From contig CM049313.1 in NCBI GenBank assembly GCA_026874595.1, positions 58,301,159 to 58,365,158 of the forward strand: a stretch of DNA of 64,000 bases. Direction: 5' to 3'. A program made the position numbers and the translations under genes. The number at the start of each line of letters is the position of its first letter. Position 1 is the stretch's first letter. This DNA is from Sipunculus nudus. Lineage: Eukaryota; Annelida; Sipuncula; Golfingiida; Sipunculidae. Under the pieces are notes generated by a model, which made no database searches, was not told the DNA's origin, and saw nothing but the letters and a program-made list of their open reading frames with translations. Positions 2,785 to 28,440 of the stretch are shown piece by piece.

Positions 2785-2812
2785 ATGGGCTGCTCAGATA
2801 GTAAAATAGAGG
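2785..2812 (+). CDS. Gene 1 coding exon 1 (MGCSDSKIE)
   Basis: The ATG follows CAAA. Nine codons plus one base, then donor GTAAGA. The length (28 nt) and the MGCS-x-(S/T)-K pattern equal those of gene 2 exon 1. Confidence 0.7.
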
Positions 2813-5800
2813 GTAAGAGACACCATTAGTTTAGGAGTCTTTGATGTATTTTGTTTTATTTTCAATGAAAGTAACATAATCTGACTGACCCTTTACCAAA
2901 TCGTGAAAACCTTTGAACCCGTTACAAGGGCCCGGTTATGATTTTAATCACTGTACATTATATATATATATATATATATATATATATATATATATATATA
3001 TATAATCAATGTTATACATGTAGAATTCAATAATCACAGTTAAAGTGTTCTACCATACAGGGGAGCAGTAATAATGTTTCATATATTTAGCTTGATTTCA
3101 TAGTATAGATTTTTCAGTTTGTACCCGATGAGTGAGCACAGGTGATGTGCCATACTTACGAAACAGTTCTGTAGTACAATACCATGAAATCAAGCTAACT
3201 ATATATATATGTAAATAAATATAAAACAATCAAATATATAACTATATATTCTAAACAAAAAAATATTTGATCGTTCATCTACCAAACATATTCTGGTGTT
3301 TCTAATAATATGTTATAAAGTAACGTAAAACCAATTACAATATATCTTCTGTTGGGTTACATTACTTCAATATATCAATATATCAGTACTGTACAATATG
3401 ATATGCATAGGGGTCATGAAGAAAGCAGAGAGAGGTCTCTCATTCGCGGGGAAGGTTGTAGACTTTGCTGATAAAGTGGCTGAAGTAACCTCAGGTATTT
3501 GATGCACAGTGTTTTGCAACATTGATCATTGATGAATGTTTATATAAGAATAAGAATGCAATGTACCCACAAAATAATAAATGTAAACTTTAAACTTTTT
3601 TTTTACCGCCGTAATTTTAATGTATCCAAAACCGCAAAAGATAACAACGAAAAATTAGCTCTCTATGCATGATTTACATGTTGATAAATGTTATTTGTTT
3701 AAGAAATGAAACTAAATGTTACAGAAATATCTTTTGTCTGAACGCTTATTGTAAATAGATCTACACAACAATCATGTGTTTGATAAATTAATGTTCGTGA
3801 TGCTCTTCATTGATACATCAGTATACTTCTTGTCTTTAACAGATGGTGGGGACGATGAAGAATGTAAGTTATAGATATAGATACATATAGTGGTTGCTCT
3901 AGTGCCATAACAATGCATAGTTTTGTAAAGGATTCAAAAGATTAATCCACACGCTGAAATATTTTTTATCTATAACCGCTATTCTGCTAGTATTTAGAAA
4001 AACGGCAGATTCGGAATGCGGAACCTAATGTGACTGATAAACTCGATAACACTGTACGGTTTAAAGAAATTATGTCAGTCATCTAGCTTAGGTATATATA
4101 TATATATATATATATATATATATATATATATATATATATATATATATATATAAATTCTACTTAGGCTCAAGCTGGTTGCTAGGTAAAATAGAACAAGGAG
4201 TAAGATAATGAAAAATATAGATACATGAACTTGGCAATTCTTTTTTAGGTGATGGAGGCGACGGAGGAGGTAAGTTATATGATTGTAAATTCCCAGTTTT
4301 TTCCGCTAAAACACGGGCAGCTTTGGCACAAGCCGCGAAAACGTCTCAGTAGGCATTCATATTGAGCTGCAGGACGCTGGCCGTCATAAAGCAACACGGC
4401 CCTATCTTGGGACGCACACAAACTGGTCATTTTTTATAGAGTACAATAGTTAAGGCTATCTAGGTGGACACACTGTTAAATTATATTTATTCTGTTCTGA
4501 TGTTATATAATTTCTCTTGTTTTCACAGGACAGTGTTAACTCACATTTACCAGTTAATGCTATTTTATATTGCCAGGATCATTATGTTTTGTGAATTTAT
4601 GTGTAAAATGACAATATCTTTAAATATTTATGCCAAATTGGATATACACATCATGAAAATAGAATATTCACAAAACGCAACAGCTTGTAGGTGTTTTAAA
4701 TGCAGTGAGTTGATACCCTTTCTGTTTTTAAGTAACAAGATATGCTGCCAAATTCATTCCTTAATACTACATTTTCAGATTATGTCTCATTTAAAAATGT
4801 GTAATTTAAAAGAAATATGATTGATCATCAAGCCAAATACTACATTATAAGAGAGGCATTGATTCATCTATGCCAAATCAATCTCTAAAATCACTCCATT
4901 TATGAAATGTATTTATTCCTGCCTTCCAGAATAAAGGAAATTTTAGCCAAGGCATGAAATCAAATCTGGGTAAGTCGTTTTTAAAGTATAGGTGCCTAGC
5001 CTGTTGATTTCAGCATGTCTTGAATGTGGATGTACAACATATGATAAGAATTATATGTTGTTGTTATTTAATCTTCTGGGTTAAAACAAAATTAAAAAGT
5101 CAAAACCTGTCGTAAAAGCATTTGACAGATATCTGATGTTCTATATTGATTTCAAAACTTTGCCCATAAGGAAACCACTTGGATCAACCCGGTGTAGCGA
5201 CTTAAGATAAACCTCCCTGATCTAAAATCGCTTTCATATTAAGCTCCGGTAATTTGAACTCCATTTCAGGTTACGCCTACAATTTAAGATTACTCCTAAA
5301 AACAGTTGTTTCTTTATGTTCATTAACTTAAAATTAATACATTTCTTTCTTCATGATTTCACAAATCAGTTTGAATCTTTATATATATTATGTTTGCATG
5401 TAATGTACCATGCGTTATGATGATGTGTATGAGAAAATATTAAAATAATTTACAATATAATGAACATTTTGCGTCAACTTTATTTTTCATAGATTGATTA
5501 CATATTTTATATATCCAAAATTTTATGTGGTTTGTTGAAATAATATAGCACCAGTTAAAAGCTTTAGACTTTATCATTTAGTTTAATCAGCGAAGGGTAA
5601 TCTGACCAGTGCGGAGGTAACCTAAAATTAGGTACATACTACCCGAAAGGTAATCTGAAATGTCTTTACAAAGTATTTTATAACACCACTAGGCTACATC
5701 ACACCCCTATGTTTTGCTCATCTATATAGTTTTCTGGAGAGTGATGCATTCAAGAAAGAAAAAAAAACTATGTATGGTATTGTTCTGATACTGGGCCTGC

Positions 5801-27400: not shown

Positions 27401-28440
27401 TTCTAATATATATGTGTGTGTGTGTGAAATATGCCAATTTATATATATATATATATATTAATTTATAATATATAATATAACAATACACATTACGTATGGT
27501 CTTCTCCTTATCCTTTTCAGAAAACGGACAGATGGGTAAGCAGAATTTATACTATTGAAATTAATAATGATGATAATAATAATGATCATTATTATAATAG
27601 TAATAATTATGATAATATCTCATTTATACACAAATATCTTTAAATAAACAGGATTAATATTCTTCAATTTTCATGTCAAACATAATAAGATTTTTTATTG
27701 TTAATATTTTTTTTTCATTTTTTTTCGTAGGTGCTTACAATGGTGAAGGTAAGATTAATATTTTTTTTAAATATTTAATTTCCTTTTATGGTTTCGTTCA
27801 TATCTGCAGTTAAGGTATAACTCCTTTACATTATAAATAATCAAGCATTTTAAAAACAGAATTTATATTCTTCGATTTTTATGTCTAACATTTAACTGAA
27901 ACCATATTAACAGATTTGTTATTTTCAATTTTTTTTTCGTAGGTGCTTACTATGGTGGAGGTAAGATATATATATATATCATTTTTCAATATCATGTATT
28001 TTACTTTATTGTTCTCGTTCATCCTTGCAGAAACAGTATACGTCCTCTAATTTATATAAATCATTAAAAAAACGGATTAATATTCTTCGATTTTTATGTC
28101 TAACATTAAACTGAAAGCATAATATAATTTTCTTTATTGTTAATTTTCTTCTACTTTTCTTCGTAGGTGCTTATTGTGGTGGAGGTAAGATGTATATCAT
28201 TTTTTAATATAATGTATTTTCCTGTTATGTTCTCGTTCATATCTGCAGTTTTAGTGCTTTTTTTCAAAATTATCGAAACAGAAATTAAATGAATTTTGCA
28301 TAGCACGAAGATTTTTACGTTGTTGAATTATTTTTCTGCATTATCAAACTGTTTTTTATATCAAATAACCCTATCATTTAGACATTATTAAATCTCTTCC
28401 AGGAGAGGTCCTATACTGCCAATATCAGGAATACTATTAA
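24423..28440 (+). CDS. Gene 2: paralogue of gene 1 with Gly/Tyr micro-exons
   Basis: Exons 24423-24450, 24684-24788, 27521-27535, 27731-27748, 27943-27960, 28167-28184 and 28403-28440. Every join is phase 1 with GT-AG sites, giving about 79 residues. The start MGCSATKVD again fits myristoylation (Gly2, Thr6, Lys7) plus palmitoylation (Cys3). Exon 2 encodes an amphipathic stretch (RNIQRVDKGVSILENIAEI), then GGCSGESSTQTS. Next is ENGQM, then three near-identical six-residue exons (GAYNGE, GAYYGG, GAYCGG), and an acidic/Tyr tail (GEVLYCQYQEYY) with TAA. The function is unknown; a small acylated membrane-associated protein is inferred. The last exon is uncertain because a donor-like CCG|GTAAGT at 28464 follows a different open frame. 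AATAAA at 28990 is a possible poly(A) signal. Confidence 0.65.
24684..24788 (+). CDS. Gene 2 exon 2
   Basis: Acceptor TTGTAG, donor GTATAT, 35 codons, phase 1-1. The hydrophobic pattern matches gene 1 exon 2. It has an extra Gly/Ser/Thr-rich end. Confidence 0.7.
25064..25112. repeat. (TA)n flanking the foldback element, left
   Basis: TA run directly abutting the left arm. Confidence 0.95.
25113..27106. mobile_element. 2-kb foldback element with 268-bp inverted arms
   Basis: Arms 25113-25380 and 26839-27106 are inverse copies of equal length; outer ends are GTCAAGGCCCAGA and TCTGGGCCTTGAC. Each arm is built of sub-repeats of the type GATCGCAATCTGGGCTGG plus palindromes AGATCTTAGATCTGTCCAG. 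The 1.46-kb centre is AT-rich and without a credible coding frame. TA tracts abut both ends, consistent with insertion into a TA repeat. It is a non-autonomous foldback-type element inside gene 2 intron 2. Confidence 0.8.
27107..27133. repeat. (TA)n flanking the foldback element, right
   Basis: TA run between the right arm and the hammerhead-bearing repeat. Confidence 0.95.
27161..27208 (-). ncRNA. Hammerhead-ribozyme-like motif, copy 2 (intact core)
   Basis: Read on the - strand. The parts in order are stem I ATTCAC/GTGAAT; core CTGATGA; stem II CGGG/CCCG around a 6-nt loop (with a U-U next to the core); GAAAC; a 3-bp stem III with GAC loop; and cleavage triplet GTC immediately before GTGAAT. 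All invariant hammerhead bases are present. The predicted cut is between 27167 and 27166. Short stem III hammerheads are known from Penelope-like retroelements and related repeats in animals. The ~90-bp surrounding repeat is shared with 14402-14488. Confidence 0.7.
27521..27535 (+). CDS. Gene 2 micro-exon 3 (ENGQM)
   Basis: 15 nt between CCTTTTCAG and GTAAGC, phase 1-1. Flanks on both sides align with the gene 1 terminal exon and the 35432 relic. Confidence 0.6.
27731..27748 (+). CDS. Gene 2 micro-exon 4 (GAYNGE)
   Basis: 18 nt, acceptor TTTTTTCGTAG, donor GTAAGATTA. First of three tandemly duplicated exons. Confidence 0.65.
27943..27960 (+). CDS. Gene 2 micro-exon 5 (GAYYGG)
   Basis: 18 nt, acceptor TTTTTTTCGTAG, donor GTAAGATATA. 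Lies 212 bp after exon 4 with matching intron flanks. Confidence 0.65.
28167..28184 (+). CDS. Gene 2 micro-exon 6 (GAYCGG)
   Basis: 18 nt, acceptor TTTTCTTCGTAG, donor GTAAGATGTA. Lies 224 bp after exon 5. The third copy differs mainly at the variable residue (N, Y, C). Confidence 0.65.
28403..28440 (+). CDS. Gene 2 terminal exon, tentative
   Basis: Acceptor AATCTCTTCCAG. In the required phase it reads GEVLYCQYQEYY then TAA. In phase 0 the segment stays open to a donor-like GTAAGT at 28464 (ERSYTANIRNTIKEK...), reminiscent of gene 1 exon 5. Either this is the true end, or a frame change has truncated the gene. Confidence 0.45.

Follow-up and report, generated by a model that had tools for sequence, protein, structure and literature searches.

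Two groups of described systems come closest to the small genes analysed here, which are gene C and gene D of a 64,000-nucleotide stretch of the Sipunculus nudus genome (C8:58301159-58365158, called the window below; source assembly 1.43 Gb) and their two paralogues, A and B. The first group comprises proteins with a lipid-accepting start. Src-family kinases begin with MGC followed by Ser/Thr at position 6 and Lys at position 7, as the present family does, and in the calflagins and HASPB of kinetoplastids, which are encoded by genes without introns, a short dual-acylated start precedes a small protein that is hydrophilic or contains repeats. Such SH4-type starts with MGC and Ser/Thr6 also occur in G-alpha o/i; G-alpha o receives myristate on Gly2 and palmitate on Cys3, and when its seven-residue start was placed on GFP, membrane binding required Gly2, as given in the available passages of PMC9018777. 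The present family differs from the G-alpha and Src-family proteins by the absence of a kinase or G domain and by Asp5 in A, B and C.

The second group comprises the micro-exon genes (MEGs) of flatworms. The structural rule used for Hymenolepis asks for at least seven exons, at least half of them micro-exons (<70 nt and divisible by 3), with a run of at least four (available text of PMC7653826). The N-terminal signal peptide is ascribed to all MEGs in the accessible part of PMC8293314 and to most MEGs in that of PMC4015677. The features common to these genes and to the present locus are runs of short symmetric frame-safe exons, small proteins, a duplicated micro-exon and mobile-element-like sequence nearby (excerpts of PMC4015677, PMC8293314 and PMC7653826), whereas the present family begins, in the predicted models, with an acylation-type sequence where MEGs have the signal peptide, and has a run of four micro-exons only in gene D. 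Among the papers listed in the open-licence literature searched, no description of a mollusc or an acylated micro-exon gene family was found; these listings include a broader use of the term for rice (PMC6600660) and microexons in a paper on a sea-anemone toxin (PMC10210398).

The best explanation of the locus, to which a probability only a little above even (about 0.54) is given, is a lineage-specific family of cytosolic, dual-acylated, amphipathic-helix proteins of about 55-80 residues with micro-exon tails. The preliminary description of the window had reported a tandem pair; both genes look real, but the genome-wide searches revealed four members. Gene A lies at C8:58246656, 57 kb upstream of C, and gene B at C8:58284637, 19 kb upstream of it; both are on the same strand as C and D. 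A degenerate pattern of exon 1 with its donor site gave four matches in 1.43 Gb and none in a reversed control, all four on one strand within 79 kb. The number remained four when the pattern was relaxed at two positions, and the identical four were the only matches when two mismatches were allowed (one in the control); a pattern of the GAY micro-exon plus splice sites was matched three times, always in gene D, and never in the control, and all these pattern counts may be lower bounds. Protein searches of the genome with exon 2, carried to E = 10, retrieved A, B and C for the exon of C and only itself for the exon of D, and would miss copies as diverged as gene D. The same searches gave no close intron-free copy of exon 2.

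The density of micro-exons was analysed over 264 kb by scanning for open, phase-1 symmetric exons of 9-36 nt with good splice sites. The scan yielded 15 candidates on the plus strand, seven of them family exons, and four on the minus strand. Of the nine undamaged micro-exons that alignments had shown in the family, two (exon 4 of B and exon 4 of C) escaped the filter. The densest 800 bases were those holding the four micro-exons of gene D. At the rate of the non-family candidates (12 per 528 kb of strand), four in the 664 bases of gene D correspond to p 2e-9, and to p 1e-4 when the triplicated exon is counted once.

Gene C was found on the plus strand at the place where it had been proposed, with AG/GT exon ends and phase 1 throughout. 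Its first exon (2785-2812, 28 nt) encodes MGCSDSKIE and the first base of the next codon, and differs among A, B and C by silent changes only. The second exon (3411-3494, 84 nt) encodes the amphipathic segment VMKKAERGLSFAGKVVDFADKVAEVTS. Two plus-strand micro-exons of 21 nt follow, namely exon 3 at 3843-3863 (DGGDDEE) and exon 4 at 4249-4269 (CDGGDGG), the latter intact in all three copies. The last coding exon lies at 6756-6775 on the same strand and reads DSLSNI and stop, the homologous exon of A and B reading DSLTNKRRR and stop; AATAAA occurs at 6784 and 7180. The first exons of the proposed anatomy are retained, and the 3' end is better placed at the conserved exon at 6756. Two other exons were considered and rejected. 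One near 4529 is readable as a terminal exon of gene C; gene A does not conserve this sequence, and in gene B a deletion has removed it. The other, at 4930 (Glu and stop), aligns well in A, B and C, and has a weak acceptor and donor in gene B.

Genes A, B and C go back to segmental duplication, with introns about 82-96% identical over the aligned columns and a common exon model of 28, 84, 21 and 21 nt and a last exon. The predicted protein of gene A is MGCSDSKIEGAMKKAEQGLSFAGKIVDFVDKVTDITSDGGGDGGCDGDDGGDSLTNKRRR. When gene B is read with its exon 3, an alternative frame stays open until a stop within the last exon; when this symmetric exon is left out, the family frame is restored and ends in DSLTNKRRR. 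A partial copy of the flank of the duplicated unit, without the MGCS exon, was observed between A and B on C8 at about -31000 to -21700 in window coordinates.

Gene D was also located where the preliminary description had placed it, on the plus strand, with AG/GT exon ends and in phase 1 throughout. Exon 1 (24423-24450, 28 nt) encodes MGCSATKVD and the first base of the next codon, and exon 2 (24684-24788, 105 nt) encodes the amphipathic segment RNIQRVDKGVSILENIAEITGAF followed by a Ser/Gly/Cys stretch. Four plus-strand micro-exons come next: ENGQM (27521-27535, 15 nt) and three tandemly duplicated units of 18 nt, GAYNGE (27731-27748), GAYYGG (27943-27960) and GAYCGG (28167-28184). Exon 7 (28403-28463, plus strand) contains the stop codon at 28438-28440 and is followed by a donor site; since this donor lies 23 bases past the stop, an untranslated 3' exon probably follows. 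Use of an inner acceptor in exon 7 would yield another C-terminal end. The predicted protein is MGCSATKVDRNIQRVDKGVSILENIAEITGAFGGCSGESSTQTSENGQMGAYNGEGAYYGGGAYCGGGEVLYCQYQEYY. The triplicated exon showed 8 differences in 54 positions (15%) without gaps, compared to 178 in 488 (36%) in the flanks, with p 0.001 for pooled pairs that are non-independent and p 0.02 to 0.21 for single pairs. Intron 2 of the gene holds, at about 25114-27107, an element of about 2 kb whose terminal inverted repeats align over 187 columns and which is flanked by TA runs. Downstream of the gene, at 29124-30162, there is a tandem array of about 22 copies of a 47-bp unit.

The mechanism proposed for the family would begin with exon 1. 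If the genes are expressed, this exon may supply an SH4-like start, MGCSx[ST]K, in which Gly2 would be N-myristoylated and Cys3 palmitoylated. The amphipathic helix predicted from exon 2 would rest in the same membrane face, and the two fatty acids together with the helix would hold the protein on the cytosolic face of the membrane. The in-phase micro-exons would form a short flexible tail presented by the anchored protein, of acidic Asp/Gly type in the A, B and C proteins and of Gly/Tyr type in D. We infer that entire exons may be gained, lost or skipped, as the frame-safe structure permits, and that the tail may in this way differ from one paralogue to another and possibly also among transcripts.

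The N-termini and the helix were compared with known patterns. Gly2, Cys3, Ser/Thr6 and Lys7 are common to all four starts, and all four match the loose N-myristoylation motif. The strict motif of N-myristoyltransferase (NMT) is MG[^DEFRWY]X[^DEKR][ACGST][KR] in the accessible text of PMC9018777. The acylation signal earlier read in both genes therefore stands by this motif for gene D (MGCSATK), but not for A, B and C (MGCSDSK), which fail at Asp5. The helical moment of exon 2 at 105 degrees was higher than that of shuffled sequences in all four genes (p 0.0001 to 0.004), that of gene D being computed on the first 23 residues of the exon. Among the proteins tried (A, C and D), no significant relative was obtained from Pfam, NCBIfam or the PDB; the single NCBIfam match of gene C was far below the cut-off (E 0.11, 11.7 of 494 bits), and the best PDB E-values were 0.097 for gene A and 0.39 for gene D. 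Together with the common exon 1, the likeness in exon 2 and the phase-1 micro-exons, this result agrees with the earlier proposal of an undescribed family. A bacterial promoter and terminator scan upstream of gene C returned nothing, the method being unsuited to an animal gene.

The kinship of gene D with the other three was analysed exon by exon. In exon 1, five of nine residues are identical between the D and C types and three are similar (S/T, I/V, E/D), and the likeness of exon 2 of D to A, B and C at a fixed register gave p 0.0005 to 0.004 by shuffling. Low-stringency blastn of C versus D produced ten pieces, the loci otherwise aligning poorly. The strongest piece (E 1.5e-14; C 6996-7145, D 35272-35414) is TA-rich and lies outside the exons of gene D, and the pieces covering exon 1 and the micro-exons have E 0.045. 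Between A and B, exon 2 was the most divergent of 44 non-overlapping windows, its divergence exceeding that of all introns together (p 0.004) but not that of the two flanking introns (p 0.08). In the comparisons with C the exon does not stand out as fast: equal or greater divergence was seen in 29 of 46 and in 31 of 49 windows. Because of these last two results, positive selection on exon 2 is not claimed.

Several results weigh against the explanation by acylated helical proteins, along with the non-independence of the pooled triplication test. The helical moment at 100 degrees exceeded shuffled sequences in A, B and C, with p above 0.05 for D, and at 98 degrees it did so in B only, the other three genes having p above 0.05. 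The link of D to C is modest on the sequence comparisons: free local alignment of exon 2 with D gave p 0.08, 0.005 and 0.004 and put A and C in a register other than the fixed one, as did the first MAFFT run, and in the genome search exon 2 of gene C failed to retrieve that of gene D, and vice versa. Exon 2 of A, B and C evolves at a near-neutral rate (A/B, 9.5 nonsynonymous and 1.5 synonymous), and change preserving the residue class was non-significant in four of six comparisons. To these are added Asp5 of A, B and C, which the strict NMT motif forbids, a 1-nt deletion in micro-exon 3 of gene B, the open frame of gene D upstream of MGCS and the prediction of all gene models from genomic DNA alone; these four points return below with the rival explanations that draw on them.

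Asp5 is the ground of the rival that survives best, an unlikely one all the same, in which genuine, spliced genes carry an MGCS start that does not direct acylation in A, B and C, so that these would encode cytosolic amphipathic peptides and D alone, or none, would be lipidated. The amino acids of exon 1 are nevertheless unchanged in A, B and C, unlike those of exon 2, and Gly2, Cys3, Ser/Thr6 and Lys7 are retained in D. Src-type starts with Lys5 likewise violate the strict rule, which also weighs against this rival.

A decaying family, in which at least one of A, B and C would be a pseudogene or non-coding, with D (or either A or C) as the sole working gene, is somewhat less probable again. 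It would account for the frameshift in exon 3 of gene B, the shortened last exon of gene C and the near-neutral exon 2. It agrees less well with the other splice sites and frames, which are intact in the copies, and with gene B itself, which still reads to a stop in its last exon and recovers the family frame when exon 3 is skipped.

The third rival, that of secreted products of the schistosome type varied by exon skipping, is improbable, and it draws on gene D. The predicted model of this gene agrees with the exon number, size and run of the MEG rule in the available text of PMC7653826 (seven exons, four of them micro-exons, in a run of four), whereas the model of A and C has five exons with two micro-exons and fails it. 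By inspection, none of the four genes has a signal peptide from the MGCS start, where polar and charged residues follow. The likeness to flatworm micro-exon genes drawn in the preliminary description is therefore kept for the exon design of gene D, but a schistosome-type signal peptide is not seen from MGCS. The family is MEG-like in gene design and is not classed as MEG. The frame of gene D is open 5' of MGCS, with an in-frame ATG at 24300, 41 codons earlier, and a hydrophobic stretch after it, and a longer, perhaps secreted form starting there is possible from the sequence. Because of this ATG the secreted rival was given more weight, and the acylated family and the decay rival slightly less. 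The frames of A, B and C contain stops upstream of MGCS, and the upstream stretch of gene D lies within repeat-like ACACAAG sequence. MGCS was taken as the start of gene D because of the comparison with A, B and C and the repeat-like upstream stretch, which is not proof. A chance array of splice-like signals with no gene, which would fit models built from DNA alone, is scarcely credible against the pattern counts, the cluster and two paralogue groups of the same design.

Other features of the window and the assembly were also noted. A 531-codon open frame at 56070-57665 on the minus strand, also seen at 62428-62556, consists of about 50 copies of a 30-bp unit and is mucin-like; the repeat keeps several other frames open at 56070-57665, and the 531-codon frame had no Pfam match. 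Two further tandem arrays lie at 39317-42301 (8.8 copies of 336 bp) and at 42908-43729 (3 copies of 275 bp). Of the 19 window open reading frames of at least 110 codons, 10 were compared with Pfam and none of these matched; Rfam gave nothing. In the assembly, nine bacterial-type COX1 genes were observed on eight contigs (listed: C60, C61, C62, C66, C72, C74, C75, C89, C123), with best relatives at 57-58% among the matches listed, and this sequence evidence suggests that contigs of bacterial origin, perhaps from symbionts, are part of the assembly. A COX1 on C123 reads without a stop in the standard genetic code, which is unusual for an animal mitochondrion. A search for a mollusc haemocyanin domain gave no match, and its control was silent as well.

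With coding exons of 15-28 nt, the cluster would be an example of what tends to escape gene finders and read aligners, according to the accessible text of PMC7653826. The flatworm micro-exon genes are presented as a means by which parasites vary secreted or surface proteins (available parts of PMC4015677, PMC8293314 and PMC7653826). The acylated family may, as a tentative and rather doubtful proposal, be an independent micro-exon family outside flatworms, in which skipping would diversify an intracellular lipid-anchored tail and the turnover of micro-exons would have changed it from acidic Asp/Gly to aromatic Gly/Tyr. If true, an acylated cytosolic cluster would mean that the micro-exon design arises outside flatworms as well and can serve membrane proteins.

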